Below are positions 33,102 through 49,158 of a DNA stretch of 50,476 nucleotides, in pieces. The notes beneath the pieces are model-generated. The model was not told the DNA's origin. It searched no databases and saw only the letters and a program-made list of their open reading frames with translations. Where the stretch lies: the NCBI RefSeq assembly GCF_000716335.1, contig NZ_KL591008.1, positions 272,108 to 322,583 of the forward strand. Reading direction: 5' to 3'. The DNA comes from Streptomyces sp. NRRL S-118 (GTDB lineage Bacteria; Actinomycetota; Actinomycetes; Streptomycetales; Streptomycetaceae). Position numbers and translations under genes: made by a program. Positions within the stretch are counted from its first letter, which is position 1. The number at the start of each line of letters is the position of its first letter.

Positions 33102-34088
33102 TCAGGGGGTTCGGCGCGCCTCGGGGTGGCGCAGGCACCAGCCCTCCCACGCCGACTCGACCATTTCGCGGACGCCGTACGACGCCGTCCAGCCCAGTTC
33201 CTCGGTGATCCGCTCGACCGACGCGACCGCCTTGGCGGCGTCGCCCGGCCGGCGCGCCTCGACCACCGGCTCGGCGGTGGCGCCGGTCACCTCGGCGACG
33301 AGCGCGGCGAGCTCCCGCACGGAGACCCCCTCGCCGCGGCCGATGTTGACCGTCAGGTCGCCGGGGCCGTCCTGTCCGGCCAGCCGGCGGGCGACGGCCA
33401 GGTGCGCGTCCGCGACGTCGGCGACGTGGATGTAGTCGCGGATGCAGGTGCCGTCCGGCGTCGGGTAGTCGGCGCCGAAGATCCGCGGAGCCTCGCCGCG
33501 GGTGATCCGGTCGAAGAACATCGGGATGATGTTGAACACGCCCGTGTCGGCCAGCTCCGGCCGCGCGGCCCCCGCCACGTTGAAGTAGCGCAGACAGGAC
33601 GTCGCCATGCCGTGGGCCCGGCCCGCCGCGCGGACCAGCCACTCGCCCGCGAGCTTCGTCTCGCCGTAGGGATTGATCGGCGCGGTCGGCGCGGTCTCAC
33701 CGATCAGCTCGGCGTCCGGAACGCCGTACACCGCCGCGGACGAGGAGAAGAGGAACCGCTTCACCCCGGCGGCGACCACGGCCTCCAGCAGCAGGGTCAG
33801 CCCGTGCACGTTCTCGCGGTAGTAATGGAGCGGCCGCTCGACCGACTCCCCGACCTGCTTCTTCGCCGCGAGGTGCACCACACCCGTGACGGCGTGCTCG
33901 GCGAGCGTCCGGTCGACCAGCTCACGGTCCGCGATCGACCCGCGCACCACGGGTATCGCGGCGGGCAGTCGTCCGGGAACGCCGGAGGACATCTCGTCGA
34001 GCACGACGACGCGCTCGCCGGCCTCCGCCATGGCGTGCGCCACATGGGCGCCGATGTATCCCGCTCCGCCTGTGATCAGCCAAGTCAT
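33102..34088 (-). CDS. galE: UDP-glucose 4-epimerase
   Basis: 328-aa cytoplasmic short-chain dehydrogenase/reductase-type epimerase. NAD-binding TGGAGYIGAHV at the N-terminus, catalytic Ser/Tyr/Lys in SSSAAVYG and PYGETKLAGE, and the GalE-type substrate region YFNVAGA and DYIHVADVA. Length is as expected. No ribosome-binding site; TAGGCT ends 7 nt before the ATG, a leaderless layout. Divergent from the envelope-polymer operon, for which it could supply UDP-galactose. Confidence 0.9.
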   Translation of the reverse strand: MTWLITGGAGYIGAHVAHAMAEAGERVVVLDEMSSGVPGRLPAAIPVVRGSIADRELVDRTLAEHAVTGVVHLAAKKQVGESVERPLHYYRENVHGLTLLLEAVVAAGVKRFLFSSSAAVYGVPDAELIGETAPTAPINPYGETKLAGEWLVRAAGRAHGMATSCLRYFNVAGAARPELADTGVFNIIPMFFDRITRGEAPRIFGADYPTPDGTCIRDYIHVADVADAHLAVARRLAGQDGPGDLTVNIGRGEGVSVRELAALVAEVTGATAEPVVEARRPGDAAKAVASVERITEELGWTASYGVREMVESAWEGWCLRHPEARRTP

Positions 34089-34172: not shown

Positions 34173-34214
34173 GGAAGCCTCGGTGAACTTCGGCTTCCGT
34201 TCATCCGATAGCCT
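34173..34214 (+). promoter_or_regulatory. Promoter region of the CDP-alcohol operon with inverted repeat
   Basis: An inverted repeat GGAAGCC-N12-GGCTTCC (34173-34198) is followed by TAGCCT (34209-34214), a plausible -10 box. The repeat covers the expected -35 position, so it may be an activator or repressor site. Confidence 0.4.
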
Positions 34215-34270
34215 CAGCCGGCGTGCCGTCGCGCCCCCCGTCCCTGTCCGGCTCCAAGGAGTGAGTTCGT

Positions 34271-36139
34271 CTGTCGACCGCCATCCTCACCGGTCCTCCG
34301 GTACCCGGATCGCCGCTCGAGGGCGATCTGCGGTCGCTGGGCTTCGACGTCCGCACCGCCACGGACCCGCGGGAGACCGCCGCACTGCTCGCCGCCGTCC
34401 CGGCCGCCGAGCGCGTCGCGGTCGTCGACCCCCGCTTCGTCGGGCACGTCCACGCCCTCCGGCTCGCGCTGACGGACCCCCGCTTCCCGGCGGCCGCGGC
34501 CCCCGGCGCGCTGACGGCGCAGCCGGAGGCCCGCACCGCCCTGACCCGGGCGCTGACGTCGCTGCCGCCCGGGGCCGCCGCGACCGCCCCCGGCGCCCAG
34601 GACGACACGGACGGCACCGGGCCGGGGCCCGCCGCGGACACCCGCACCGCCGTCGTGACCCTGCCCGACCTCATCGCCGACGCGCTCCGCGCCGAGGGCG
34701 TCGACGTGCACCGGCCGGAGTTCGGGACGCTGGTCGCCGCCGTGCCGGCCGACCCGCAGAGCCGCAAGGAGACGCGGGACGCCGTCGAGGCCGTCGACGA
34801 CGAGGCCGTACGGCTGCGCTCGGCCGTGAAGGCCCGCGACGGGTTCTTCACCACCTTCTTCATCAGCCCGTACTCGCGGTACATCGCCCGCTGGTGCGCC
34901 CGCCGGGGCCTCACCCCCAACCAGGTCACCACGGCCTCGCTGCTCACCGCCCTCGTCGCGGCGGGCTGTGCGGCGACCGGCACCCGCGGCGGGTTCGTCG
35001 CGGCCGGCGTCCTGCTGCTCCTCTCCTTCGTCCTGGACTGCACCGACGGGCAGCTCGCCCGCTACTCGCTGCAGTACTCGACGATGGGCGCGTGGCTCGA
35101 CGCCACCTTCGACCGGGCCAAGGAGTACGCCTACTACGCGGGCCTCGCCCTGGGCGCCGCCCGCGGCGGGGACGACGTGTGGGCGCTCGCGCTCGGCGCG
35201 ATGATCCTGCAGACCGGCCGCCACGTCGTGGACTTCTCCTTCAACGAGGCGAACCACGACGCCACTGCCAACACCAGCCCCACCGCCGCGCTCTCCGACA
35301 AGCTCGACAGCCGGGGCTGGACGGTGTGGGCGCGCCGGATGATAGTCCTGCCCATCGGTGAACGATGGGCCATGATCGCCGTGCTCACGGCGGTCACCAC
35401 ACCCCGCGTCGTCTTCTACGCCCTGCTCGTCGGCTGCGCCTTCGCCGCCTGCTACACCACCGCCGGCCGCCTCCTGCGGTCGGTCACCCGCCGGGCCCGC
35501 CGCACCGACCGCGCCGCCCTGGCCCTCGCCGACCTGGCCGACTCCGGTCCGCTCGCCCAGGGCTTCGCCGCGGCCTTCCGCGGCGCCGCCCGCGCCCTGC
35601 CCTCCTTCGCGCCCCCCGTCGCGGCACTGACCGGCGCCGCGGCCGTCGTCGCCACCGCGGCCCTCGCCCCGGCCGGCGGGCCCTGGCCGGCGGTCGCCGC
35701 CCTCGGCTACGCCTGCCTCTCGGGCCTGGCCGTCGCCCGCCCCCTCAAGGGCGCCCTCGACTGGCTCGTCCCGCCCTTCTTCCGGGCCGGCGAGTACCTC
35801 ACGGTCCTCGCCCTCGCCGCCCGCTCCGACGCCCCGGGGGCGCTCCCCGCGGCATTCGGCCTGGTCGCGGCCGTCGCCTACCATCACTACGACACGGTCT
35901 ACCGCATTCGCGGCGGCACCGGCGCGCCGCCCGCCTGGCTGGTGCGGACGATCGGCGGCCACGAGGGCCGCACGCTCGTGGTCGCGGTCCTCGCCGCGGC
36001 CCTGACGGCAGGCGACCACTTCACCGTCGCGCTCACCGTTCTCGCGGTGGCCGTCGCGCTGGTCGTGCTCGTGGAGTCCATCCGCTTCTGGGTGTCCTCC
36101 GGAGCACCCGCAGTACACGACGAAGGAGAACCCGCATGA
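34271..36139 (+). CDS. CDP-alcohol phosphatidyltransferase with N-terminal extension (probable CTG start)
   Basis: 622-aa membrane protein. The CDP-alcohol transferase motif is complete: Asp256-x2-Asp259-Gly-x2-Ala-Arg264-x8-Gly273-x3-Asp277-x3-Asp281, in helices around residues 225-345. Several further helices follow to the C-terminus. Residues 1-130 form a separate soluble part (STAILTGPPVPGSPLEGDL). I start at a CTG at 34271: AAGGAG lies 9 nt upstream, coding-like sequence begins there, and the only conventional in-frame start before the transferase domain (GTG 34655) has no ribosome-binding site. An in-frame TGA at 34262 rules out anything longer. From memory related proteins are annotated with DUF5941. 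First gene of the operon; ATGA overlap with the next. Confidence 0.85.
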   Translation: MSTAILTGPPVPGSPLEGDLRSLGFDVRTATDPRETAALLAAVPAAERVAVVDPRFVGHVHALRLALTDPRFPAAAAPGALTAQPEARTALTRALTSLPPGAAATAPGAQDDTDGTGPGPAADTRTAVVTLPDLIADALRAEGVDVHRPEFGTLVAAVPADPQSRKETRDAVEAVDDEAVRLRSAVKARDGFFTTFFISPYSRYIARWCARRGLTPNQVTTASLLTALVAAGCAATGTRGGFVAAGVLLLLSFVLDCTDGQLARYSLQYSTMGAWLDATFDRAKEYAYYAGLALGAARGGDDVWALALGAMILQTGRHVVDFSFNEANHDATANTSPTAALSDKLDSRGWTVWARRMIVLPIGERWAMIAVLTAVTTPRVVFYALLVGCAFAACYTTAGRLLRSVTRRARRTDRAALALADLADSGPLAQGFAAAFRGAARALPSFAPPVAALTGAAAVVATAALAPAGGPWPAVAALGYACLSGLAVARPLKGALDWLVPPFFRAGEYLTVLALAARSDAPGALPAAFGLVAAVAYHHYDTVYRIRGGTGAPPAWLVRTIGGHEGRTLVVAVLAAALTAGDHFTVALTVLAVAVALVVLVESIRFWVSSGAPAVHDEGEPA

Positions 36140-36870
36140 TCGGCCTCGTACTGGCAGCCGGTGCCGGACGGCGTCTGCGCCCCTACACCGACACGCTCCC
36201 GAAGGCCCTCGTGCCCGTCGACGGCGACCGGACGGTCCTCGACCTGACCCTCGCCAACTTCGCCGCCGTCGGCCTCACCGAGGCCGCCATCGTCGTCGGC
36301 TACCGCAAGGAGGCCGTGTACGAGCGCAGGGCCGCCCTGGAGGCCGCGTACGGCCTGAAGCTCACGCTGATCGACAACGACAAGGCCGAGGAGTGGAACA
36401 ACGCCTACTCCCTGTGGTGCGCCCGTGACGTCCTGAAGGAGGGCGTCATCCTCGCCAACGGCGACACCGTGCACCCGGTCTCCGTCGAGCAGAACCTCCT
36501 CGCCGCCCGCGGCGACGGGCGGAGGATCATCCTCGCCCTCGACACGGTGAAGAAGCTTGCCGACGAGGAGATGAAGGTCGTCGTCGACGGCCAGGGCGTG
36601 CGCCGCATCACCAAGCTCATGGACCCGGCCACCGCCGACGGCGAGTACATCGGCGTCACCCTCATCGAGCCCGAGGCCGCCGAGCCCCTCGCCGACGCGC
36701 TGAAGACCACCTTCGAGCGCGACCCGGACCTGTACTACGAGGACGGCTACCAGGAGCTGGTCGACCGGGGCTTCCGGATCGACGTGGAGTCCATCGGCGA
36801 CGTCAGGTGGGTCGAGATCGACAACCACGACGACCTCGCGAAGGGCCGTGGGATCGCGTGCCTGTACTGA
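36136..36870 (+). CDS. Sugar/alcohol-phosphate nucleotidyltransferase (probably CTP-using)
   Basis: 244-aa cytoplasmic NTP-transferase. N-terminal LVLAAGAGRRLRPYTDTLPKAL is the nucleotide-binding loop with the conserved Lys, and ANGDT carries the metal-binding Asp. Two motifs (DNDKAEEWNNAYSLW and EDGYQELVDRGFRIDVE) are typical of the branch near phosphocholine and inositol-phosphate cytidylyltransferases. Given the CDP-alcohol transferases on both sides, it most likely makes a CDP-alcohol from CTP and an alcohol phosphate. Start overlaps the previous stop (ATGA). Confidence 0.88.
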   Translation: MIGLVLAAGAGRRLRPYTDTLPKALVPVDGDRTVLDLTLANFAAVGLTEAAIVVGYRKEAVYERRAALEAAYGLKLTLIDNDKAEEWNNAYSLWCARDVLKEGVILANGDTVHPVSVEQNLLAARGDGRRIILALDTVKKLADEEMKVVVDGQGVRRITKLMDPATADGEYIGVTLIEPEAAEPLADALKTTFERDPDLYYEDGYQELVDRGFRIDVESIGDVRWVEIDNHDDLAKGRGIACLY

Positions 36871-37919
36871 CCCGGCTCATCCCCTCACCCGTCGTCGTCG
36901 ACATCCGCCGCGGGGCGATGGACGACCTGGCCGGCCTCCTCGCCGACCAGCGGATCTCCGCCTCCGGCAAGCTCGCCATGGCGATCAGCAACGGCTCCGG
37001 CCAGGCGCTGCGCGAAAAGCTCGCGCCGCTGCTCCCGGACGCCGACTGGTACCACGTGGCCGACGGCAGCATCGACTCCGCCGTGCGCCTCGCCGACGCC
37101 ATCAGGGGCAAGCGGTACGACGCCGTCGTCGGAGTCGGCGGCGGCAAGATCCTCGACGTGACGAAGTACGCCGCGGCGAGGGTCGGCCTGCCCATGGTCT
37201 CCGTCGCGACGAACCTCTCGCACGACGGCATCTGCTCGCCCATCGCGACCCTCGACAACGACAACGGACGCGGCTCCTACGGTGTCCCCTCGCCGATCGC
37301 CATGGTCATCGACCTGGACGTGATCCGGCGGGCTCCGGCGCGGTTCGTCCGTTCCGGCATCGGTGAGGCGATCTCGAACCTCTCGGCGATCGCCGACTGG
37401 GAGCTCTCCCACCGGCACACCGGCGAGCAGATCGACGGCCTTGCCGCCGCCATGGCCCGTACGTCCGGTGAGTCGGTGCTGCGTCACCCGGGCGGCGTCG
37501 AGGACGACGAGCTCCTCATCGTGCTCGCCGAGGCTCTCGTCCTCGGCGGCATCGCCATGTCGATCAGCGGCGACTCCCGCCCCTCGTCGGGCGCCTGCCA
37601 CGAGATCAGCCACGCCTTCGACCTGCTGTACCCCGGGCGCGCCGCGCTCCACGGCGAGCAGGTCGGACTCGGCGCCGCCTTCGCGATGCACCTGCGCGGC
37701 GCCCGCGAGCAGTCCGGGCTCTTCGCCGAGGTACTGCGCCGGCACGGCCTGCCGGTGCTGCCCGAGGAGATCGGGTTCTCCCCGGACGAGTTCGTCGCGG
37801 CCGTGGAGTACGCACCGCAGACCCGCCCCGGGCGCTTCACCATCCTCGAGCACCTCGACCTGTCCACCGACCAGATCAGGGACGCGTACGCCGACCATGC
37901 CAAGACCATCCGTAGCTGA
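36858..37919 (+). CDS. Glycerol-1-phosphate dehydrogenase-like metal-dependent alcohol dehydrogenase
   Basis: 353-aa cytoplasmic enzyme of the iron-containing alcohol dehydrogenase superfamily, in the Egs/AraM-like branch. NAD(P)-binding GVGGGKILDVTKYAA, SHDGICSPIA and the metal-site residues Glu170 (SGIGEAISN), His248 (GACHEISHAFD) and His265 (HGEQVGLG) are visible. As I recall, archaeal G1P dehydrogenases have Asp where Glu170 stands. GTG start at 36858, overlapping the nucleotidyltransferase by 13 nt. Probable reaction: reduction of dihydroxyacetone phosphate or another ketose phosphate to the alcohol phosphate that the previous enzyme activates. Confidence 0.86.
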   Translation: MPVLTRLIPSPVVVDIRRGAMDDLAGLLADQRISASGKLAMAISNGSGQALREKLAPLLPDADWYHVADGSIDSAVRLADAIRGKRYDAVVGVGGGKILDVTKYAAARVGLPMVSVATNLSHDGICSPIATLDNDNGRGSYGVPSPIAMVIDLDVIRRAPARFVRSGIGEAISNLSAIADWELSHRHTGEQIDGLAAAMARTSGESVLRHPGGVEDDELLIVLAEALVLGGIAMSISGDSRPSSGACHEISHAFDLLYPGRAALHGEQVGLGAAFAMHLRGAREQSGLFAEVLRRHGLPVLPEEIGFSPDEFVAAVEYAPQTRPGRFTILEHLDLSTDQIRDAYADHAKTIRS

Positions 37920-38676
37920 ACTCCGCCCGGTCGTCCATCCGGCGGGAGTGAAGGACCGGCGCAGCGGCGAGCACTGGGGCGGCCGCCTCTACATGCGCGA
38001 GATCTCGCTGCGCATCACCCGCCTGCTGGTCACCACCAAGGTCACGCCCAACCAGCTGACCTACGTGATGACCCTCTGCGGCGTGCTCGCCGCCCCGGCC
38101 CTGCTCGTGCCGGGCGTCTGGGGTGCCGTCCTCGGTGTGGTGGCGGTCCAGCTCTACCTGCTGCTCGACTGCGTCGACGGCGAGGTGGCCCGCTGGAAGA
38201 AGCAGTTCTCGCTCTCCGGCGTCTACCTGGACCGGGTCGGCGCCTACCTGTGCGACGCGGCGGTCCTGGTCGGCTTCGGCCTGCGCGCCGCGGACCTGTG
38301 GGGCAGCGGCCGGATCGACTGGCTGTGGGCCTTCCTCGGCACCCTGGCCGCGCTCGGCGCGATCCTGATCAAGGCCGAGACCGACCTGGTCGGTGTCGCC
38401 CGGCACCAGGGCGGGCTGCCGCCGGTCAAGGAGGCGGCCGCCGAGCCGCGCTCGTCCGGCATGGCGCTCGCCCGCCGGGCCGCCGGCGCGCTCAAGTTCC
38501 ACCGGCTGATCCTCGGCATCGAGGCGTCCCTGCTCATCCTGGCCCTCGCGGTCGTGGACCAGGTCCGGGGCGACCTGTTCTTCTCCCGCCTCGGCGTCGC
38601 CGTGCTGGCCGGCATCGCGCTGCTCCAGACGGTGCTGCACCTGGTGTCCGTCCTCGCCTCCAGCAGGCTGAGGTGA
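37897..38676 (+). CDS. Second CDP-alcohol phosphatidyltransferase family protein, altered motif
   Basis: 259-aa membrane protein with about six helices. The motif reads Asp91-x2-Asp94-Gly95-x2-Ala98-Arg99-x8-Gly108-x3-Asp112-x3-Ala116: the fourth aspartate, the usual catalytic base, is alanine. Start ATG at 37897 (MPRPSVAELRP) overlaps the preceding gene by 23 nt; no strong ribosome-binding site is seen and coupling is likely. A later GTG near 37948 is possible. A second transferase in one operon suggests two successive phosphodiester-forming steps or a regulatory partner of the first. Confidence 0.86.
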   Translation: MPRPSVAELRPVVHPAGVKDRRSGEHWGGRLYMREISLRITRLLVTTKVTPNQLTYVMTLCGVLAAPALLVPGVWGAVLGVVAVQLYLLLDCVDGEVARWKKQFSLSGVYLDRVGAYLCDAAVLVGFGLRAADLWGSGRIDWLWAFLGTLAALGAILIKAETDLVGVARHQGGLPPVKEAAAEPRSSGMALARRAAGALKFHRLILGIEASLLILALAVVDQVRGDLFFSRLGVAVLAGIALLQTVLHLVSVLASSRLR

Positions 38677-38681
38677 CGCGC

Positions 38682-39554
38682 ATGAGACTCGGTGCCGTCA
38701 TCATCACCATGGGCAACCGCCCCGACGACCTGCGCGCCCTCATCGAGTCCGTCCGCAAGCAGGACGGCGACCCGGTCGACATCGTCGTCGTCGGCAACGG
38801 CGCCCCGGTCACGGGCGTCCCCGACGGGGTGCGCACCATCGACCTCCCGGAGAACCTGGGCATCCCCGGCGGCCGCAATGTCGGCATCGAGGCCTTCGGG
38901 CCCCACGGCAGCGACGTCGACGCCCTGCTCTTCCTGGACGACGACGGCCTGCTGCCGAACACGGACACCGCCGAGCTCGTCCGCCGGGCCTTCGCCGCCG
39001 ACCCGGAGCTGGGCATCATCAGCTTCCGGATCGCCGACCCGGACACCGGCGTCACCCAGCGCCGCCACGTACCGCGGCTGCGGGCCTCCGACCCGATGCG
39101 CTCCTCGCGGGTGACGACCTTCCTCGGTGGCGCCAACGCCGTCCGCACGAAGGTGTTCGCCGAGGTCGGCGGGCTGCCGGACGAGTTCTTCTACGCGCAC
39201 GAGGAGACCGACCTCGCCTGGCGGGCGCTCGACGCCGGCTGGATGATCGACTACCGCGCGGACATGATCCTGTTCCACCCGACGACCGCGCCCTCCCGGC
39301 ACGCCGTCTACCACCGGATGGTCGCCCGCAACCGCGTCTGGCTGGCCCGCCGCAACCTGCCCGCGCCGCTGGTACCCCTCTACCTCGGCGTCTGGCTGCT
39401 GCTCACCCTCGCCCGCCGCCCCTCGGCGCCCGCGCTGAAGGCGTGGTTCGGCGGGTTCCGGGAAGGCTGGACGAGCCCCTGCGGTCCCCGGCGCCCGATG
39501 AAGTGGCGTACCGTGTGGCGGCTGACGAGACTGGGCCGTCCTCCTGTCATCTGA
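38682..39554 (+). CDS. GT2-family glycosyltransferase
   Basis: 290-aa glycosyltransferase of the GT-A fold. LGAVIITMGNRPDDLRALI opens the domain; ENLGIPGGRNVGIEAF and FLDDDG (metal-binding Asp residues) follow. GGANAVRTKVFAEVGGLPDEFFYAHEETDLAWR matches the acceptor/catalytic region of rhamnosyl- and galactofuranosyl-transferase-like enzymes. A hydrophobic C-terminal segment may anchor it to the membrane. GAGGTG lies 6 nt before the ATG, 5 nt after the upstream stop. Likely adds a sugar to the operon's polymer or lipid; sugar unknown. Confidence 0.9.
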   Translation: MRLGAVIITMGNRPDDLRALIESVRKQDGDPVDIVVVGNGAPVTGVPDGVRTIDLPENLGIPGGRNVGIEAFGPHGSDVDALLFLDDDGLLPNTDTAELVRRAFAADPELGIISFRIADPDTGVTQRRHVPRLRASDPMRSSRVTTFLGGANAVRTKVFAEVGGLPDEFFYAHEETDLAWRALDAGWMIDYRADMILFHPTTAPSRHAVYHRMVARNRVWLARRNLPAPLVPLYLGVWLLLTLARRPSAPALKAWFGGFREGWTSPCGPRRPMKWRTVWRLTRLGRPPVI

Positions 39555-39652
39555 CAAGCTCGTACCGACAAGCACCGGGCGTACCCGGGACCTGGCCGCC
39601 ACCTGACCCGCGCCCTTCCCGCCGCGCATCTTGAACACGAAAGTGCCAACTG

Positions 39653-40591
39653 GTGAGTGAGACAATCCATGACGGAGCGATCGCCGTGACCGCGGCCCCC
39701 GCCCCGCCATCCCCCGACGACGGCCTGTCCCCGGCGGAGCTGGCGGCCAAGTACGGTCTGTCGGTGAGCGGTGCCCGGCCGAGCCTGCCCGAGTACGTCC
39801 GGCAGCTGTGGGGCCGTCGCCACTTCATCCTGACCTTCTCGCGCGCGAAGCTGACGGCCCAGTACAGCCAGGCCAAGCTCGGCCAGCTGTGGCAGGTGGC
39901 GACTCCGCTGCTGAACGCCGCGGTCTACTTCCTGATCTTCGGGCTGATCCTGAACGCCGGGAAGGGCATGCCGAAGGAGGTGTACATCCCGTTCCTGGTG
40001 ACGGGTGTGTTCGTCTTCACCTTCACCCAGACCTCGGTGATGTCCGGCGTGCGGTCCATCGCCGGCAACCTCGGCCTGGTGCGGGCGCTGCACTTCCCCC
40101 GCGCGTCGCTGCCCATCTCCTTCGCGCTGCAGCAGCTCCAGCAGCTGATGTACTCGATGATCGTGCTGTTCGCGATCGTCGCGGCGTTCGGCAGCTACCC
40201 GTCGGCGAGCTGGCTGCTGATCCTGCCGGCGCTGACGATGCAGTTCGTGTTCAACACCGGGCTCGCGCTGGCCATGGCCCGGCTGGGCAGCAAGACCCCC
40301 GACCTCGCCCAGCTGATGCCCTTCATCCTGCGGACCTGGATGTACGCCTCCGGCGTGATGTTCTCGATCCCGGTGATGCTGCAGGACAAGCCGGCCTGGA
40401 TCGCCGACGTCCTGATGTACAACCCGGCCGCCATCTACATGGACCTCATCCGCTTCGCCCTGATCGACGGTTACGGCTCCGCGAACCTCCCCTCGCACGT
40501 CTGGTTCGCCGGCCTGCTGTGGGCGGTCCTCGTCGGCGCCGCCGGTTTCGTGTACTTCTGGAAGGCAGAGGACCGGTACGGCCGTGGCTGA
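39653..40591 (+). CDS. ABC-2 type polysaccharide export permease, TagG-like
   Basis: 312-aa inner-membrane protein. A cytoplasmic N-terminal region of about 60 residues precedes six helices; FTQTSVMSGVRSIAGNLGLVRALHFPRASLP is the typical cytoplasmic loop of O-antigen/teichoic-acid exporters. GTG start at 39653. With the ATPase that overlaps it by 8 nt, it forms a Wzm/Wzt or TagG/TagH type exporter for a lipid-linked polymer. Confidence 0.92.
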   Translation: MSETIHDGAIAVTAAPAPPSPDDGLSPAELAAKYGLSVSGARPSLPEYVRQLWGRRHFILTFSRAKLTAQYSQAKLGQLWQVATPLLNAAVYFLIFGLILNAGKGMPKEVYIPFLVTGVFVFTFTQTSVMSGVRSIAGNLGLVRALHFPRASLPISFALQQLQQLMYSMIVLFAIVAAFGSYPSASWLLILPALTMQFVFNTGLALAMARLGSKTPDLAQLMPFILRTWMYASGVMFSIPVMLQDKPAWIADVLMYNPAAIYMDLIRFALIDGYGSANLPSHVWFAGLLWAVLVGAAGFVYFWKAEDRYGRG

Positions 40592-41426
40592 GGACATCAA
40601 GGACATCACCGCCGGGGACGCCGAGGACGCGCCCCCGACCGTCACCGCGGACGGCGCCCGCATCCCGACCGTCATCGCCGACGACGTGCACATCGTGTAC
40701 CGCGTCAACGGCGGAGGCACGGCGGGCAAGGGCAGCGCCACCGCGGCGCTGAACCGGATAATCCGGCGGGACCGGGGCGAATCGCGCGGTGTGCGGAGGG
40801 TCCACGCCGTGCGCGGTGTCTCCTTCACCGCGTACCGCGGCGAGGCCATCGGCCTCATCGGCACCAACGGCTCGGGCAAGTCGACCCTGCTGCGCGCCAT
40901 CGCGGGCCTGCTGCCGTGCGAGAGCGGCAGGGTCTACACCGACGGCCAGCCCTCGCTCCTCGGGGTCAACGCGGCGCTGATGGGCGACCTGACCGGTGAG
41001 CGCAACGTCATCCTCGGCGGTCTGGCCATGGGCATGTCCCGCGAGGAGATCCGCGAGCGCTACCAGGACATCGTCGACTTCTCCGGCATCAACGAGAAGG
41101 GCGACTTCATCACGCTGCCCATGCGGACGTACTCCTCCGGCATGGGCGCCCGCCTGCGCTTCGCCATCGCCGCCGCCAAGGACCACGACGTCCTCATGAT
41201 CGACGAGGCGCTGGCGACCGGCGACCGCAAGTTCCAGATCCGCTCCGAGCAGCGCATCCGCGAGCTCCGCAAGGAGGCCGGCACCGTCTTCCTCGTCAGC
41301 CACAGCAACAAGTCGATCAGGGACACCTGCGACCGCGTGCTCTGGCTGGAGAAGGGCGAGCTGCTGATGGACGGCCCGACGGACGAGGTCCTCAAGGCCT
41401 ACGAGAAGGAAACCGGCAAGCCCTGA
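40584..41426 (+). CDS. ABC transporter ATPase for polysaccharide export, TagH-like
   Basis: 280-aa cytoplasmic ATPase. Walker A GTNGSGKST, signature YSSGMGARLRFA and Walker B VLMIDEALA are present. It has the GERNVILGG segment and an extended N-terminus (about 75 residues before the first beta strands) seen in TagH/Wzt-type exporters. It lacks a long C-terminal carbohydrate-binding domain. GTG start overlaps the permease gene by 8 nt. Last gene of the operon before a 36-nt palindromic terminator. Confidence 0.93.
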   Translation: MAEDIKDITAGDAEDAPPTVTADGARIPTVIADDVHIVYRVNGGGTAGKGSATAALNRIIRRDRGESRGVRRVHAVRGVSFTAYRGEAIGLIGTNGSGKSTLLRAIAGLLPCESGRVYTDGQPSLLGVNAALMGDLTGERNVILGGLAMGMSREEIRERYQDIVDFSGINEKGDFITLPMRTYSSGMGARLRFAIAAAKDHDVLMIDEALATGDRKFQIRSEQRIRELRKEAGTVFLVSHSNKSIRDTCDRVLWLEKGELLMDGPTDEVLKAYEKETGKP

Positions 41427-41867: not shown

Positions 41868-41930
41868 ATGACGGTGAATCTCCAGCTCCGCGAGGATCCC
41901 GCCGTCCCCGCGCCGGGCAGTCCGCGGTGA
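41868..41930 (+). CDS. Candidate 20-aa upstream peptide coupled to hpnC
   Basis: ATG at 41868, GGGAG 11 nt upstream (an in-frame GTG lies at 41859), starting MTVNLQLREDPAV and ending PGSPR. Its TGA overlaps the GTG start of hpnC (GTGA, 41927-41930). HpnC has no ribosome-binding site of its own, so its translation may depend on ribosomes finishing this frame. Confidence 0.5.
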   Translation: MTVNLQLREDPAVPAPGSPR

Positions 41931-42838
41931 CAGGTACCCGGCAGGCGCGCCCCGACGCCTCCTCGCGCGCCACGCTCGACAAGGCCGCCCACGAGAACTT
42001 CCCCGTGGCCCCCTTCTTCCTGCCCCGGGCCTGGCGCGACGACCTGATGGCGGTGTACGGCTACGCCCGGCTCGTCGACGACATCGGCGACGGCGACCTG
42101 GCGCCCGGCGGCGGGGACGCCCGCCACCTCGGCGTCCCCCCGGAGCTCGCCGGCGACCGGCTCACCCTCCTCGACGCGTTCGAGGCGGACCTGCGCCGCG
42201 TCTTCGACGGCATCCCCGCCCACCCCCTGCTGCGCGCCCTGCAGCCCACCGTGCGGCGCCACGCCCTGAGCCCCGAACCGTTCCTCGGCCTCATCGAGGC
42301 CAACCGCCAGGACCAGCTCGTGCGCCGCTACGAAACGTACGACGACCTCGTCGCGTACTGCGAGCTGTCCGCCAACACCGTCGGCCGTCTCGTCCTGGGC
42401 ATCACCGGCACCACCAGCCCCGAACGCCTGCGCCGCTCCGACGCCGTCTGCACCGCCCTGCAGATCGTCGAGCACCTCCAGGACGTCGCCGAGGACCTCG
42501 CCGGCGACCGCGTCTACCTGCCCGCCGAGCACATGAAACGGTTCGGCGTCACCGAGGCCGATCTGGCCCGCCCCACCGCCGGCGCGGCGGTCCGCGCGCT
42601 GATCGCGTCCGAGGTGGACCGCACCCGCGCGCTCCTGGACGAGGGCATGCCCCTGGTCGGCAGCGTCCACGGCAGGCTCCGGCTGCTGCTCGCCGGGTTC
42701 GTCGCCGGCGGACACGCCTCGCTCGACGCGATCGAGGCCGCCGGACACGACGTACTGCAGGGACCGCCCAAAGCCGGCAGGCCGCAACTGCTGCGCCGGA
42801 TGGGAGCCGTCTTGCGAAGAGCGCGTGGAGAGGGGTGA
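41927..42838 (+). CDS. hpnC: Squalene synthase HpnC (hydroxysqualene step)
   Basis: 303-aa enzyme of the trans-isoprenyl diphosphate synthase fold, head-to-head type. Asp-rich motifs RLVDDIGD and EHLQDVAEDLAGDRVYLP bind the diphosphates. In characterised bacteria HpnC converts the presqualene diphosphate made by HpnD into hydroxysqualene. Together with HpnD and HpnE it makes squalene from farnesyl diphosphate. Start GTG, coupled to a small upstream frame. First large gene of the operon; 4-nt overlap with hpnD. Confidence 0.92.
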   Translation: MTGTRQARPDASSRATLDKAAHENFPVAPFFLPRAWRDDLMAVYGYARLVDDIGDGDLAPGGGDARHLGVPPELAGDRLTLLDAFEADLRRVFDGIPAHPLLRALQPTVRRHALSPEPFLGLIEANRQDQLVRRYETYDDLVAYCELSANTVGRLVLGITGTTSPERLRRSDAVCTALQIVEHLQDVAEDLAGDRVYLPAEHMKRFGVTEADLARPTAGAAVRALIASEVDRTRALLDEGMPLVGSVHGRLRLLLAGFVAGGHASLDAIEAAGHDVLQGPPKAGRPQLLRRMGAVLRRARGEG

Positions 42839-43785
42839 GCGGGACCATGGAAGGACGGACACACATGTCCGCGCCGGTGCAGGCCGCGTACAGCTACTGC
42901 GAGGCCGTCACCGGGCAGCAGGCCCGCAACTTCGCCTACGGCATCCGCCTGCTGCCCACCGAGAAGCGGCAGGCCATGTCGGCGCTGTACGCCTTCTCGC
43001 GGCGGGTCGACGACATCGGCGACGGCCGGCTCGGGACCGCGGCCAAGGAGGAGCGCCTCGACGCCACCCGTCAGCTGCTCGACCGCATCCGCAAGGACGC
43101 CGTCGACGAGGACGACACCGACCCGGTCGCCGTCGCCCTGTGCGACACCGCCCGCCGCTTCCCGCTGCCGCTCGGCGCCCTCGACGAGCTCATCGACGGC
43201 GTCCTGATGGACGTGCGCGGCGAGACGTACGAGACCTGGGACGACCTCAAGGTGTACTGCCGCTGCGTCGCGGGTGCCATCGGCAGGCTCTCGCTCGCCA
43301 TCTTCGGCACCACGAACGGCACCCGCGGCACCGAACGCGCCTCCGAGTACGCCGACACGCTCGGCCTCGCCCTCCAACTCACCAACATCCTCAGGGACGT
43401 TCGCGAGGACGCCACCAGCGGCCGCACCTACCTGCCCGCCGACGACCTCGCCAAGTTCGGCTGCACCGACGGCTTCCGCAGCGCCACCCCGCCGGCCGGC
43501 GCGGACTTCCCGGGCCTGGTGCACTTCGAAGTGCGGCGCGCCCGCGCGCTGTTCGCCGAGGGCTACCGGCTGCTGCCCCTGCTCGACCGCCGCAGCGGCG
43601 CCTGCGTCGCCGCGATGGCGGGCATCTACCGCCGCCTCCTCGACCGCATCGAGCGCGACCCGCAGGCCGTGCTCCGCGGCCGGGTCTCCCTGCCCGGCCG
43701 GGAGAAGGCGTACGTCGCCGTGCGCGGCCTGTCCGGCCTCGACGCCCGGACCATGTCCCGGCAGACCCTCAGGAGGCGTGCCTGA
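42835..43785 (+). CDS. hpnD: Presqualene diphosphate synthase HpnD
   Basis: 316-aa head-to-head prenyl synthase that joins two farnesyl diphosphates. Asp-rich motifs RRVDDIGD and NILRDVREDATSGRTYLP are intact, and YSYCEAVTGQQARNFAYGI opens the domain. GTG at 42835 overlaps the hpnC stop (GTGA). An ATG at 42865 (MSAPVQAAYS) has AAGGA 9 nt upstream and could be the true start, giving 306 aa. Paralogue of HpnC, as in other hopanoid operons. Confidence 0.93.
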   Translation: MSGTMEGRTHMSAPVQAAYSYCEAVTGQQARNFAYGIRLLPTEKRQAMSALYAFSRRVDDIGDGRLGTAAKEERLDATRQLLDRIRKDAVDEDDTDPVAVALCDTARRFPLPLGALDELIDGVLMDVRGETYETWDDLKVYCRCVAGAIGRLSLAIFGTTNGTRGTERASEYADTLGLALQLTNILRDVREDATSGRTYLPADDLAKFGCTDGFRSATPPAGADFPGLVHFEVRRARALFAEGYRLLPLLDRRSGACVAAMAGIYRRLLDRIERDPQAVLRGRVSLPGREKAYVAVRGLSGLDARTMSRQTLRRRA

Positions 43786-43865
43786 TGCCCCGTGGAGCAA
43801 CCCGCGCCCCGCTTCCCGCGTCCCTGACGGCGGCGGCCGGACGACGCAGGGGGGAGGTCGCATGA
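43785..43865 (+). CDS. 26-aa open frame bridging hpnD and hpnE
   Basis: AGGAGG at 43771-43776 stands 8 nt before an ATG that overlaps the hpnD stop as TGATG. The frame reads MPRGATRAPLPASLTAAAG then a basic RRRGEVA end, and its stop overlaps the hpnE start as ATGA. Both junctions are exact, so ribosomes could pass from hpnD through this frame into hpnE. The ASLTA..GR pattern reminds me of tiny Streptomyces proteins grouped as DUF6380 (from memory). hpnE also has its own GGGAGG. Confidence 0.55.
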   Translation: MPRGATRAPLPASLTAAAGRRRGEVA

Positions 43866-45250
43866 GCGACGACGGCCTGACGCCGGGCCCGCACGCCGTG
43901 GTCGTCGGCGGCGGGATCGCCGGCATCACCGCCGCCCTGCGCCTCGCCGGGGCCGGACTGGGCGTCACCCTCCTCGAAGGGCGGCCCCGCCTCGGCGGCC
44001 TCGCCTTCTCCTTCAAGCGCGGCGACCTCACCGTCGACAACGGCCAGCACGTCTACCTGCGCTGCTGCACCGCCTACCGGTGGTTCCTCGACCGTGTCGG
44101 CGGTGCCCACCTCGCGCCCCTCCAGCCACGGCTCGACGTCCCCGTCCTCGACGTCGCCCACCCCCGCGGCCCCCGCCTCGGCCGGCTGCGGCGCACCGCC
44201 CTGCCCGTACCGCTGCACCTCGCCGCGAGCCTCGCGACCTACCCGCACCTGTCGCTCGCCGAGCGCGTGAGCGTGGGCCGGGCCGCCCTCGCCCTCAAGA
44301 AGCTCGACCCGGCCGACCCGGCCCTCGACGGCGTCGACTTCGCCACCTGGCTCGCCCGCCACGGCCAGACGCCCCGCGCCGTCGAAGCCCTGTGGGACCT
44401 CGTCGGAGTCGCCACCCTCAACGCCACCGCGCCGCACGCCTCCATGGGCCTGGCCGCCATGGTGTTCAAGACCGGGCTCCTCTCCGAACCGGGCGCCGCC
44501 GACATCGGCTGGGCGCACGTCCCCCTCGGCGAGCTCCACGACACCCTCGCCCGCACGGCCCTCGACTCGCTCGGCGTCCGCACCCAACTGCGCACCAAGG
44601 CCACCTCGCTCTCCCGCACGGAGGACGGCCGCTGGCGGGTCGGGGTGCCCGGCGGAACGCTCCACGCGGACGCCGTCGTCCTCGCCGTACCGCAGACCGA
44701 GGCCCACGACCTGCTGCCGCCCGGCGCGCTCGACGACCCCGGCAAGCTCCTGGACATCGGCACCGCACCGATCCTCAACGTCCACGTCCTGTACGACCGC
44801 AAGGTGCTGCGGCAGCCGTTCTTCACCGCGCTCGGCTCCCCGGTCCAGTGGGTCTTCGACCGCACGGACGCCTCCGGGTACACCGACGGCCAGTACCTGG
44901 CCCTGTCCCAGTCCGCCGCCGGTGCCGAGATCGACGAGCCGGTCGCCGTCCTGCGCGAGCGCTACCTGCCCGAACTGGAACGGCTGCTGCCCGCCGCGCG
45001 CGGCGCGAAGGTGCGCGACTTCTTCGTCACCCGGGAGCGCACGGCGACGTTCGCCCCCACCCCCGGCGTCGGCCGGCTGCGCCCCGCCGCCCTCACCGAA
45101 GCGCCCGGCCTGTACCTGGCCGGCGCGTGGACCGCCACCGGCTGGCCCGCCACCATGGAAGGTGCGGTACGCAGCGGCTTCACCGCCGCGGACGCCGCCC
45201 TCTCGGCACTCGGCCGCCCCCATGTACATCCGCTCGAGGAGGCGGCATGA
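43862..45250 (+). CDS. hpnE: Hydroxysqualene dehydroxylase HpnE
   Basis: 462-aa FAD-dependent amine-oxidase-fold enzyme that reduces hydroxysqualene to squalene. N-terminal FAD loop VVVGGGIAGITAALRLA, then GRPRLGGLAFSF and the C-terminal FAD motif GLYLAGAWTATGWPATMEGAVRSG. It resembles phytoene desaturases but lies between hpnD and a squalene-hopene cyclase operon, which fixes the role. Start ATG at 43862 with GGGAGG 4 nt upstream. 4-nt overlap with the polyprenyl synthase gene. Confidence 0.93.
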   Translation: MSDDGLTPGPHAVVVGGGIAGITAALRLAGAGLGVTLLEGRPRLGGLAFSFKRGDLTVDNGQHVYLRCCTAYRWFLDRVGGAHLAPLQPRLDVPVLDVAHPRGPRLGRLRRTALPVPLHLAASLATYPHLSLAERVSVGRAALALKKLDPADPALDGVDFATWLARHGQTPRAVEALWDLVGVATLNATAPHASMGLAAMVFKTGLLSEPGAADIGWAHVPLGELHDTLARTALDSLGVRTQLRTKATSLSRTEDGRWRVGVPGGTLHADAVVLAVPQTEAHDLLPPGALDDPGKLLDIGTAPILNVHVLYDRKVLRQPFFTALGSPVQWVFDRTDASGYTDGQYLALSQSAAGAEIDEPVAVLRERYLPELERLLPAARGAKVRDFFVTRERTATFAPTPGVGRLRPAALTEAPGLYLAGAWTATGWPATMEGAVRSGFTAADAALSALGRPHVHPLEEAA

Positions 45251-46347
45251 GCCTGAGTACTGGAACAAGAGGAGAGACCGTGCCGACTGTGCCCCCGGTG
45301 AATCCGGCCGTCGACACCGTGGACGTCGCAGCCCTGCTGGAGCGCGGGCGGACCCTGTCCACCCCGGTGCTGCGCGCGGCCGTGAAGCGGCTCGCGCCGC
45401 CGATGGACACCGTCGCCGCCTACCACTTCGGGTGGATCGACGCCCACGGCCGGCCCGCCGACGGCGACAGCGGCAAGGCCGTACGCCCCGCCCTCGCCCT
45501 GCTGTCCGCCGAAGCGGCCGGCGCGGAGCCCGAGACCGGCGTCCCGGGCGCGGTCGCCGTGGAACTCGTGCACAACTTCTCGCTGCTGCACGACGACCTC
45601 ATGGACGGCGACGAGCAGCGCCGCCACCGCGACACCGTGTGGAAGGTCCACGGCCCCGCCCAGGCCATCCTCGTCGGCGACGCGCTGTTCGCGCTCGCCA
45701 ACGAACTGCTGCTGGAGCTCGGCACCGTGGACGCCGGGCGCGCCACGCGCCGGCTGACCACCGCCAGCCGCAAGCTCATCGACGGCCAGGCCCAGGACAT
45801 CTCCTACGAGCACCGCGAGCGGGTGACCGTCGAGGAGTGCCTGGAGATGGAGGGCAACAAGACCGGTGCGCTGCTCGCCTGCGCCTGCTCCATCGGCGCC
45901 GTCCTCGGCGGCGCCGACGACCGCACCGCCGACACCCTGGAGGCGTACGGCTACCACCTCGGCCTCGCCTTCCAGGCCGTCGACGACCTGCTGGGCATCT
46001 GGGGCGACCCGGAGGCCACCGGCAAGCAGACCTGGAGCGACCTGCGCCAGCGCAAGAAGTCGCTGCCGGTCGTCGCCGCGCTCGCCGCGGGCGGCCCGGC
46101 CTCGGAGCGGCTCGCGGAGCTCCTCGCGGCCGACGCCAAGAGCAGCGACCTCGACAGCTTCTCCGAGGAGGAATTCGCCATGCGCGCGGCCCTCATCGAG
46201 GAGGCGGGCGGCCGCGAGTGGACCTCCGAGGAAGCCCGCCGCCAGCACGCCGTCGCGATCGAGGCACTGCACCGCGTCGACATGCCGGAACGGATCCGCG
46301 CCCAGCTCATCGCGCTCGCGGACTTCGTCGTCGTACGAAAGAGATGA
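45247..46347 (+). CDS. Polyprenyl (probably farnesyl) diphosphate synthase
   Basis: 366-aa (from ATG 45247) prenyl-chain elongation enzyme. First Asp-rich motif LLHDDLMDGDEQRR (Asp116, Asp117, Asp120), conserved GKAVRPALALL, and second region FQAVDDLLGIWGDPEATGK. In this operon it most likely supplies farnesyl diphosphate to HpnD. AGGAGG lies 4 nt before ATG 45247, which overlaps the hpnE stop; a GTG at 45280 with GGAG 5 nt upstream is an alternative start giving 355 aa. Chain length cannot be read safely from sequence. Confidence 0.9.
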   Translation: MSLSTGTRGETVPTVPPVNPAVDTVDVAALLERGRTLSTPVLRAAVKRLAPPMDTVAAYHFGWIDAHGRPADGDSGKAVRPALALLSAEAAGAEPETGVPGAVAVELVHNFSLLHDDLMDGDEQRRHRDTVWKVHGPAQAILVGDALFALANELLLELGTVDAGRATRRLTTASRKLIDGQAQDISYEHRERVTVEECLEMEGNKTGALLACACSIGAVLGGADDRTADTLEAYGYHLGLAFQAVDDLLGIWGDPEATGKQTWSDLRQRKKSLPVVAALAAGGPASERLAELLAADAKSSDLDSFSEEEFAMRAALIEEAGGREWTSEEARRQHAVAIEALHRVDMPERIRAQLIALADFVVVRKR

Positions 46348-46397
46348 TCGCCATCGGGACGAGCAGCCGCCTCACCACCATATGAATCGCTAGTCGC

Positions 46398-46422
46398 CGG
46401 CCGGTGCCCCGCGCACCGGCCG
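46398..46422 (+). other. Intercistronic hairpin before shc
   Basis: CGGCCGGTGC (46398-46407), loop CCCGC, GCACCGGCCG (46413-46422): a perfect 10-bp stem without U-run inside the 122-nt gap between the prenyl synthase and shc. Could lower read-through or protect the upstream mRNA. Confidence 0.65.
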
Positions 46423-46469
46423 ACGGCCCACCCGCAGCCGCAGCACATCCACTGCACGAAGGGGAAGCC

Positions 46470-48482
46470 ATGACAGCGACGACCGACGGAAGCGCCGGAG
46501 CCCCCGAGCCCTGGGCCCCCTCGGCCATGGAAACAGCCACCACCCTCCCCGCCGGCCCCGCCGCCCCGAGGGACGGCGGCGTACGGGAGGCCGCGGAGCG
46601 GGCCGTCCGGCGCTCCGTCGAGCACCTCCTCGCCCGGCAGGACGCCGAGGGGTGGTGGAAGGGCGACCTGGAGACCAACGTCACCATGGACGCCGAGGAC
46701 CTCCTGCTCAGACAGTTCCTCGGGATCACGGACGAGACGGTCACCCGCGCCGCGGCCCGGCACATCCGCGGCCAGCAGCGCGAGGACGGAACCTGGGCCA
46801 CCTTCTACGGCGGCCCCGGCGAACTGTCCGCCACCATCGAGGCGTACGTGGCGCTGCGGCTGGCCGGCGACCGGCCCGACGAACCGCACATGGCCCGTGC
46901 CGCCGCCTGGATCAGGGCCCGGGGCGGCATCGCCGCGAGCCGGGTCTTCACCCGCATCTGGCTGGCGCTGTTCGGCTGGTGGAAGTGGGACGACCTGCCG
47001 GAACTCCCGCCCGAGCTGATCTACCTGCCACCGTGGTTCCCGCTCAACATCTACGACTTCGGCCAGTGGGCGCGGCAGACCATCGTGCCGCTCACCATCG
47101 TCTCCGCGAAACGCCCCGTCCGCCCGGCACCCTTCGCGCTGGAGGAGCTGCACACCGACCCCCGCCGGCCCAACCCGCCCCGGCCCCTCGCTCCGGCGAC
47201 CACCTGGGACGGCCTCTTCCAGCGGCTGGACAAGGCCCTGCACGCGTACCGCAGGGTCGCCCCGCGCCCGCTGCGCGGAGCAGCGATGAACGCCGCCGCC
47301 CGCTGGATCATCGAGCGGCAGGAGAACGACGGCTGCTGGGGCGGCATCCAGCCCCCGGCCGTCTACTCGCTCATCGCCCTGCGCCTGGTCGGCTACGACC
47401 TGAACCACCCGGTGATGCGGGCGGGCCTGGAATCCCTCGACCGGTTCGCCGTCTGGCGCGACGACGGCTCCCGCATGGTCGAGGCCTGCCAGTCACCCGT
47501 CTGGGACACCTGCCTGGCGACCATCGCGCTCGCCGACGCCGGCCTGCGTCCCGACCACCCCGCGCTGGTCAAGGCGGCCGACTGGATGATCGGCGAGCAG
47601 ATCGTCCGGCCCGGTGACTGGGCGGTGCGCAGGCCCGGGCTCACCCCGGGCGGCTGGGCGTTCGAGTTCCACAACGACACCTACCCGGACATCGACGACA
47701 CCGCCGAGGTGATCCTCGCGCTGCGCCGGGTGCGGCACCCCGACCCCGAGCGGCTGGACGCGGCCGTCGAGCGCGGCGCCCGCTGGACGCTCGGCATGCA
47801 GTCCCGCGACGGCGGCTGGGCCGCGTTCGACGCCGACAACACCAGCACCCTGCCCAACCGGCTGCCCTTCTGCGACTTCGGTGAGGTCGTCGACCCACCG
47901 TCGGCCGACGTCACCGCCCACGTGGTCGAGATGCTGGCGTACGAGGGCAAGGCCCACCACCCGCGGACGCGCAGGGGCATCGAGTGGCTGCTGGCCGAAC
48001 AGGAGGCGAACGGCTCCTGGTTCGGACGCTGGGGCGTCAACCACGTCTACGGCACCGGGTCCGTGGTGCCGGCGCTGACGGCGGCCGGGCTGCCGCACTC
48101 CCACCCCGCCGTCCGGCGCGCCGTCGCCTGGCTGGAGTCCGTCCAGAACGACGACGGCGGCTGGGGCGAGGACCTGCGCTCCTACCGCGAGGAGAAGTGG
48201 ATCGGCCGCGGCGCGTCCACCGCTTCGCAGACCGCGTGGGCACTGATGGCGCTGCTCGCCGCGGGGGAGCGGGACTCGGCCGCGGTGGAGCGCGGGATCC
48301 TCTGGCTCGCGCGTACCCAGCGCGAGGACGGCTCCTGGGACGAGCCGCACTTCACCGGCACCGGCTTCCCGTGGGACTTCTCCATCAACTACCACCTGTA
48401 CCGGCAGGTCTTCCCCCTCACCGCGCTCGGCCGGTACGTCAACGGCGAACCCTCCTTCGGTCACCTCGGCAAGGAGGGGTGA
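46470..48482 (+). CDS. shc: Squalene-hopene cyclase
   Basis: 670-aa monotopic membrane enzyme that cyclises squalene to hopene/hopanol. The protonating motif Asp407-Ile-Asp409-Asp410 (YPDIDDTAE) is intact. Repeated QW motifs are visible (QDAEGWWKG, QREDGTWATF, QENDGCWGG, QSRDGGWAAF, QEANGSWFGRWG, QNDDGGWGED, QREDGSWDE), as is the conserved GTGFPWDFSINYHLYR near the C-terminus. An extra Ala/Pro-rich N-terminal stretch of about 35 residues is usual for streptomycetes. GGGG/AAG ribosome-binding region just before the ATG. TGATG overlap with hpnG. Confidence 0.96.
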   Translation: MTATTDGSAGAPEPWAPSAMETATTLPAGPAAPRDGGVREAAERAVRRSVEHLLARQDAEGWWKGDLETNVTMDAEDLLLRQFLGITDETVTRAAARHIRGQQREDGTWATFYGGPGELSATIEAYVALRLAGDRPDEPHMARAAAWIRARGGIAASRVFTRIWLALFGWWKWDDLPELPPELIYLPPWFPLNIYDFGQWARQTIVPLTIVSAKRPVRPAPFALEELHTDPRRPNPPRPLAPATTWDGLFQRLDKALHAYRRVAPRPLRGAAMNAAARWIIERQENDGCWGGIQPPAVYSLIALRLVGYDLNHPVMRAGLESLDRFAVWRDDGSRMVEACQSPVWDTCLATIALADAGLRPDHPALVKAADWMIGEQIVRPGDWAVRRPGLTPGGWAFEFHNDTYPDIDDTAEVILALRRVRHPDPERLDAAVERGARWTLGMQSRDGGWAAFDADNTSTLPNRLPFCDFGEVVDPPSADVTAHVVEMLAYEGKAHHPRTRRGIEWLLAEQEANGSWFGRWGVNHVYGTGSVVPALTAAGLPHSHPAVRRAVAWLESVQNDDGGWGEDLRSYREEKWIGRGASTASQTAWALMALLAAGERDSAAVERGILWLARTQREDGSWDEPHFTGTGFPWDFSINYHLYRQVFPLTALGRYVNGEPSFGHLGKEG

Positions 48483-49153
48483 TGGCATCCGGACCGGAGT
48501 CGCCCGACTCCGACGCGGAGCTCGTCGCGCCGCCGCTGCTGATCGCCTGCGCGCTCGGCATCGAACGCTTCGCCCTGCGCGGCCGGCGCCGCCACGGGGG
48601 CGCGCCCGGTCCGGTGACCGTGCTGCGTACGGGCATGGGCCCCGCGAACGCCGAGCAGGCGGTGGCGCGGGCGCTCGCCGGGGAGCCGCTGCGGGACGCC
48701 GCCGTGGTGGCGTCCGGCTTCTGCGCCGGGCTGGCCCCGGGGATGCACCCGGGGGACCTGGTCGTCGCCGGCGAGACCCGGGGCCCCGGCGGCCCGGCCG
48801 CCTGCACGGGCACGGACCTGCTGGTCGAGGCGCTGGGGCGGGCCGTGCCCGGGCGTACGGTGCACACCGGCCCGCTGACCGGTTCCGACCACGTCGTCCG
48901 GGGCCCGGAGCGTGCCGACCTGCGGGCCACGGGCGCCATCGCGGTGGACATGGAGTCGGCGGCCACGCTCGGGGCCGCACTCGGCGCGGGGTCCCGCCCG
49001 GTTGCGGCCGTCCGGGTGGTCGTGGATGCTCCTGAGCACGAGCTCGTCCGGATCGGCACAGTGCGGGGGGGAATATCAGCATTCCTCGTTCTTCGCTCCG
49101 TCTTGCCCGCATTCTTTGAATGGCACCGTTCTTTGCTGCTCCCCAGGAGGTGA
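48482..49153 (+). CDS. hpnG: Hopanoid-associated nucleoside phosphorylase HpnG
   Basis: 223-aa cytoplasmic phosphorylase-fold enzyme that removes adenine from adenosylhopane. Conserved segments: LRTGMGPANAEQAVA, VVASGFCAGLAPGMHPGDLVVAGE, TGSDHVV and the nucleoside-binding AVDMESAATLG. The ATG overlaps the shc stop (TGATG). The last 25 codons run into lower-GC sequence that also carries the AGGAGG for hpnH. Pathway role is from characterised homologues. Confidence 0.9.
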   Translation: MASGPESPDSDAELVAPPLLIACALGIERFALRGRRRHGGAPGPVTVLRTGMGPANAEQAVARALAGEPLRDAAVVASGFCAGLAPGMHPGDLVVAGETRGPGGPAACTGTDLLVEALGRAVPGRTVHTGPLTGSDHVVRGPERADLRATGAIAVDMESAATLGAALGAGSRPVAAVRVVVDAPEHELVRIGTVRGGISAFLVLRSVLPAFFEWHRSLLLPRR

Positions 49154-49158
49154 GCCAG

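Follow-up and report, generated by a model that had tools for sequence, protein, structure and literature searches.

The window analysed here is a stretch of 50,476 nucleotides from Streptomyces sp. NRRL S-118 (contig NZ_KL591008.1, positions 272,108 to 322,583), and it carries an operon of seven genes, g1 to g7, among which are a glycerol-1-phosphate dehydrogenase (G1PDH) homologue, a predicted cytidylyltransferase and a TagGH-like exporter. We estimate a probability of roughly 55% that this operon uses the archaeal enantiomer of glycerol phosphate to build a teichoic-like glycoconjugate, containing glycerol phosphate, and exports it. The locus is real, conserved and was partly noticed before; its biochemical reading is new and testable. 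Gene content, gene order, conservation, family-level identity and co-occurrence were all observed directly.

Gene content of the operon

The seven co-directional genes form one run on the + strand (34271-41426), as follows:

34256..34273, + strand, ribosome-binding site AAGGAG and most likely CTG start of g1, from comparison of start codons and leaders among relatives
34271..36139, + strand, g1, CDP-alcohol phosphotransferase, AF2299-like (PF01066 CDP-OH_P_transf, with a PF19365 DUF5941 C-terminus)
36136..36870, + strand, g2, predicted CTP:phosphoalcohol cytidylyltransferase, LicC/PntC/IPCT group (PF00483 NTP_transferase)
36858..37919, + strand, g3, G1PDH homologue of EgsA/AraM type (PF13685 Fe-ADH_2)
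37897..38676, + strand, g4, second CDP-alcohol phosphotransferase, altered fourth Asp (PF01066)
38682..39554, + strand, g5, GT2 glycosyltransferase (PF00535)
39653..40591, + strand, g6, ABC-2 permease, polymer-export type (PF01061)
40584..41426, + strand, g7, TagH/Wzt-like ATPase (PF00005)

The original prediction had named these genes as a single run with a divergent galE, and all of them were present on the + strand, with galE on the - strand. Its remark that most junctions overlap agrees with the coordinates, which give overlaps at 4/6 junctions (g1/g2, g2/g3, g3/g4 and g6/g7) and spacings of 5 bp at g4/g5 and 98 bp at g5/g6. The genes lay as it described them; the left border had to be moved, the start of g1 being most likely about 100 bp further in. 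This start was studied in 101 sequences (the window and 100 loci), 64 of which have the N-terminal motif used as query. In those 64 the start codon was CTG (53) or TTG (11), AGGA or GGAG was found upstream in every case (64/64) and the leader was near-invariant. Translation of g1 most likely begins at CTG (34271) behind AAGGAG.

Sequence families and active-site positions

The nearest solved relatives of g3 were archaeal G1PDH chains (1.1e-42). The chain 3ce9, deposited as a glycerol dehydrogenase, scored 4.9e-42 and the next glycerol dehydrogenase 8e-18. In an alignment of 141 rows, from which matches of 700 bases or less were left out, His248, His252, His265 and the R-P-x-S-G motif were kept in every row (141/141), and residue 170 was Asp in 127/141 and Glu in 14/141, the protein of the window having Glu. 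The three His and residue 170 are presumably the metal positions. Both its sequence family and its active-site positions place g3 as a predicted member of the EgsA/AraM family.

A profile search of PDB sequences with g2 gave LicC (97 bits), PntC (88) and IPCT (77), the next match having 58 bits, and the sequence profile of g2 was nearer to these three than to sugar nucleotidyltransferases. Its structure model had a predicted local distance difference test (pLDDT) score of 96.7. We propose g2 as a putative CTP:glycerol-1-phosphate cytidylyltransferase.

The class I CDP-alcohol phosphotransferase signature, with all four Asp, was found in g1 and not in g4. In g1 the four residues were kept in all 117 rows covering them (121 rows aligned). 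In g4 the first three were kept in 126/126, and the fourth position (residue 116) was Ala in 92, as in the window, His in 34, belonging to other lineages, and Asp in none. The nearest solved structure was AF2299 both for g1 and for g4 (8.3e-13 in the latter), and the two proteins also resembled the IPCT-DIPPS enzyme. AF2299 is described as accommodating CDP-glycerol as donor (PMC4634129). In one pairwise profile comparison the N-terminus of g1 matched the g2 family; it is probably a degenerate cytidylyltransferase-like domain.

As for the remaining genes, Asp86-Asp87-Asp88 of g5 was kept in 124/124, and g6 matched the NF050109 galactan exporter with 51 bits, under the cut-off. The likeness of g6/g7 to TagGH is taken as a predicted resemblance only.

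Distribution of the operon

In a sample of the order, g3 was found in 138/147 genomes, comprising 134/134 of the genus of the window and 4/13 of the others. A search of named genomes gave 262 confirmed places, of which the best 80, all from Streptomyces, were analysed; g1 to g7 stood together in 80/80. Two kinds of neighbour accompany them in the window:

33102..34088, - strand, galE, UDP-glucose 4-epimerase (TIGR01179 above cut-off), divergent from g1-g7, an optional neighbour
41927..50178, + strand, hopanoid genes next to the operon (HpnC, HpnD, squalene-hopene cyclase and HpnH tested, each above cut-off)

Among these 80 loci galE (>300 bits) was beside the operon in 33. In L151-L153 galE lies inside the operon. 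The genes hpnC and hpnD adjoined 78/80, both exceptions being short contigs. From 20 further loci of the same genus, 19 had g1-g7 with hpnC and hpnD, and in the remaining one (L202, a contig end) g3 was beside TagF-like genes. The genome G058, considered as a Streptomyces having g3 only beside TagF-like genes, was rejected as such: an assembly break is likelier there because g1 has a full-length match elsewhere in G058 and g3 is at a contig end.

In some Streptomyces a further copy of g3 stands among genes for ribonuclease (RNase) E/G, L21 and Obg. In L155 (8302-10100) this region holds a second g2-g3 pair, and in L154 (8382-9506) a lone second g3; L154 and L188 had no g2 match and had two TagF-like genes. 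Elsewhere in the window, at 30562-31815 on the - strand, a methyltransferase domain and a GNAT acetyltransferase domain are fused in one open frame.

In other genera 39 loci were scored, 32 of operon type (g3 >300 bits) and 7 weaker, contig ends depressing some of the counts. In the operon-type loci g2 adjoined in 28, within 400 bp of g3, and g4, g5 and g1 were present in 23, 22 and 21, g6 together with g7 in 16 and galE in 3; neither hpnC nor hpnD was a neighbour in any of the 32. A TagF-like gene (at least 150 bits) was within 10 kb in 7/32, about 0.3 being expected if copy numbers from three genomes are assumed, and envelope genes cluster anyway. At the 7 weaker loci g2 was within 400 bp of g3 in 6 and TagF was found in 1. 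Source names on the matches of one non-Streptomyces g3 included Nitriliruptorales, Euzebyales, Egibacteraceae, Gaiellaceae and Carbonactinosporaceae. Separately, in L144, L145, L147, L148 and L150, which are distant actinobacterial loci, a G1PDH homologue is paired with a nucleotidyltransferase whose match is weak, and no g1, g4 or exporter matches were found at those pairs.

Co-occurrence in all the named Streptomyces loci, together with partial runs outside this genus, indicates that the association of g1-g7 is more than chance. Since the core persists in other genera and hopanoid neighbours do not, the core is a module found widely among actinobacteria, and its hopanoid surroundings appear to be a trait of Streptomyces.

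Co-occurrence with TagF and TagD

The genome of the window has two PF04464 (TagF-family) genes, which score 413 and 411 bits and lie on a different contig. A g6-like permease (L165:8277-9098) is about 10 kb from them, which suggests a second exporter of the g6 type near these genes. The three PF01467 genes of the genome were NadD, CoaD and an HldE-type protein, and TagD (TIGR01518) was not found in this genome, the best score, 30 bits, falling in the HldE-type protein.

In a class sample of 148 genomes, PF04464 was present in 69 and g3 in 35, and 34 of these 35 also had PF04464. TIGR01518 matched 60 genomes at 1e-3, 11 with at least 100 bits and none over the cut-off. Among the 51 genomes having PF04464 at 1e-50 or better, g3 was found in 34, TagD with at least 100 bits in 6, both in none and neither in 11; none of the 35 g3 genomes had TagD at this level. 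The exclusion between g3 and TagD had p 7e-4 and the genus-level association p 1e-4. In a phylum sample of 296 genomes g3 was present in 42 and PF04464 in 45. One genome, G331, carries a single island with TagF, g1, g7 and g6. In G442 and G490 the PF04464 fragments close to g3 were weak (41-43 bits), and linkage was not scored for them.

Proposed pathway

In the pathway that we propose, g3 would convert dihydroxyacetone phosphate into sn-glycerol-1-phosphate, from which, with CTP, g2 would form CDP-1-glycerol. By AF2299-like chemistry g1 would then move phosphoglycerol from CDP-1-glycerol to an acceptor that is probably held in the membrane, g4 being perhaps a modified or auxiliary partner of g1. 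A sugar would be added to the product by g5, and g6/g7 would export the resulting teichoic-like glycoconjugate. In actinomycetes with TagF-type polymerases and without TagD, the CDP-1-glycerol pool would probably also feed those polymerases. We infer the substrates, chirality, acceptor, product and use by TagF. In favour of this pathway are the solved relatives and conserved positions of g3, the profile matches of g2 and its closeness to g3 outside Streptomyces, AF2299 as the nearest solved structure for g1 and g4, and, in the class sample, the joint presence of g3 and PF04464, the exclusion between g3 and TagD and the lack of PcrB over its cut-off, together with the TagF-like genes near g3 in 7/32 loci. 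The chain first suggested for this locus, from a ketose phosphate through a CDP-alcohol to transfer, glycosylation and export, is the best-supported reading and its alcohol could be narrowed to glycerol, although chirality, acceptor and product are not deducible from sequence.

We also considered a wider proposal, which is tentative and rather doubtful at present: that actinobacteria polymerise cytosolic CDP-1-glycerol, so that part of their teichoic-type wall polymer mirrors classical wall teichoic acid, with G1PDH and g2 replacing TagD and with g1 as the primer or lipid-anchor enzyme.

Several observations weigh against the proposed pathway. The best NCBIfam matches of g3 (NF002022, G1P dehydrogenase, 245 bits) and g7 (TagH, NF010066, 173 bits) were under their cut-offs of 413 and 320 bits. 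VIA-align of the g2 model ties IPCT and LicC with sugar nucleotidyltransferases, and in the Foldseek results RmlA, in the seventh row, has the same E-value as the sixth. The g1 model was middling (pLDDT 73) and its match to AF2299 loose (template modelling score of 0.33 on model length). In addition, g4 may be inactive, because it lacks the fourth Asp and a D to N change at that site is described as having nearly abolished the activity of phosphatidylinositol-phosphate (PIP) synthase (PMC4634129). The p values for the exclusion between g3 and TagD and for the genus-level association were obtained with thresholds set after the tables had been seen and with relatedness only partly controlled. 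A TagD-like match of uncertain specificity (59-66 bits) was found in 5 of the 13 Streptomyces genomes that the class sample contains, though not in the genome of the window. In the phylum sample only 17/42 g3 genomes have PF04464, and it is absent from 4 of the 8 non-Streptomyces genomes with g3 >300 bits (G415, G228, G404 and G189). TagF as sole consumer of CDP-glycerol was therefore rejected, since these four operon-type genomes have no PF04464 match and the operon must also serve a use without TagF. Finally, pure CDP-1-glycerol is reported to be used by one TagF-like polymerase and not by another (PMC8262930), and the wall polymers described for S. coelicolor in PMC7831098 are teichulosonic acid and polydiglycosylphosphate, with no glycerol phosphate.

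Alternative explanations

The alcohol might be other than glycerol, with g3 acting on another ketone, either a phosphonate or a ketose phosphate of greater length, and g2 making another CDP-alcohol for the same type of export. We regard this as unlikely, because the conserved positions of g3 follow G1PDH and g1 and g4 are nearest to AF2299, for which PMC4634129 describes a CDP-glycerol donor. The likeness of g1 and g4 to AF2299 and to the IPCT-DIPPS enzyme would also fit a soluble or lipid-linked, glycerophospho-inositol-like small product as in Archaeoglobus, in which both transferases would use an inositol-type acceptor and no polymer would be formed. CDP-1-glycerol is given as the precursor of archaeal glycerophosphoinositol (PMC8262930), and some lineages carry the operon without TagF. 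However, a glycosyltransferase and a polymer-type ABC (ATP-binding cassette) exporter accompany the genes, g6 and g7 being together in half of the operon-type loci outside Streptomyces (16/32) and in all the named loci of this genus, so that this second alternative appears somewhat less likely still.

Two lipid products were also weighed. Attachment of phosphoglycerol or glycosyl-phosphoglycerol to hopanoids in Streptomyces would agree with the hpnC and hpnD genes adjoining nearly all named loci and the four hopanoid families detected above cut-off in the window. Nevertheless, it is improbable, and as a main role it is disfavoured because that adjacency was not seen in the 32 operon-type loci of other genera. 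An archaeal-type ether lipid, in which G1P from g3 would be prenylated in the way known from AraM and PcrB in Bacillus, would agree with g3 being an AraM/EgsA homologue. This possibility was rejected as very improbable: PcrB (PF01884) was over its cut-off in 0/148 class genomes and had no match in the genome of the window, and its weak partial matches in 11 class genomes included none of the 35 with g3. The teichoic-like glycoconjugate made from CDP-1-glycerol is the reading that we prefer.

Significance and previous reports

If g3 and g2 act as proposed, CDP-1-glycerol would be a product of much of the Actinomycetota, with all sampled genomes of the genus of the window among them (134/134). 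It would supply TagF homologues with CDP-glycerol where the genome has no TagD, would mean a second bacterial use for the 'archaeal' glycerol enantiomer and would allow actinobacterial envelopes to be tested clearly by chirality. The original prediction held that a G1P unit in a bacterial envelope would be remarkable. This has to be corrected, since such units (Gro-1-P) are already reported in lipoteichoic acid, streptococcal rhamnose polysaccharides and lipopolysaccharide (PMC8262930). According to the same source they appear to derive from donors other than CDP-1-glycerol, which a 2021 paper rated as likely absent from bacteria; a cytosolic CDP-1-glycerol route in bacteria would be the new element.

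Literature searches agreed with the statement that no product had been published for this gene set, although the genes had already been grouped as teichoic-associated. We found no publication joining glycerol-1-phosphate dehydrogenase, Streptomyces and cytidylyltransferase, nor any on DUF5941 or a glycerol-1-phosphate cytidylyltransferase, all three being weak negatives as most subscription papers were outside the search. A Streptomyces sequence is included in a G1PDH alignment (PMC5059525), and wall-teichoic genes of S. coelicolor are listed at other loci in PMC3937824. A 2026 synteny study of 929 genomes describes, in Streptomyces, a region that holds crtB, tagH, tagG and araM, is labelled teichoic-associated and has its nucleotidyltransferase duplicated in 76 genomes (PMC13118837). 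This is evidently the same locus as g1-g7; in the passages available, that study proposes no pathway, contains no test for TagD or TagF and does not go beyond Streptomyces.

Comparison with known systems

The Bacillus AraM-PcrB system shares with the operon a G1PDH homologue in a bacterium, but the partner of g3 is a predicted cytidylyltransferase and no PcrB was over the cut-off in the class sample. The cytidylyltransferases LicC, PntC and IPCT are like g2 in sequence profile; in fold they resemble it too, LicC and IPCT about as closely as sugar nucleotidyltransferases do by VIA-align. Unlike them, g2 is paired with a G1PDH homologue. With the AF2299 and CDP-1-glycerol route of Archaeoglobus, as described in PMC4634129 and PMC8262930, the proposed role of g1 shares the CDP-glycerol donor, and both AF2299 and g1 are class I CDP-alcohol phosphotransferases that carry an N-terminal domain resembling cytidylyltransferases, probably degenerate in g1. 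The operon differs from that route in having a separate cytidylyltransferase gene, a G1PDH, a second transferase with an altered motif, a GT2 enzyme and an exporter. Finally, the wall teichoic acid pathway (TagD-TagB-TagF-TagGH) shares the logic of a CDP-glycerol donor and TagGH-like export, and TagF-family genes occur in the same genomes as the operon, sometimes adjoining it. In contrast to that pathway, the operon of the window holds no PF04464 gene, and in the place of TagD it has a G1PDH homologue and an enzyme of the NTP-transferase type.

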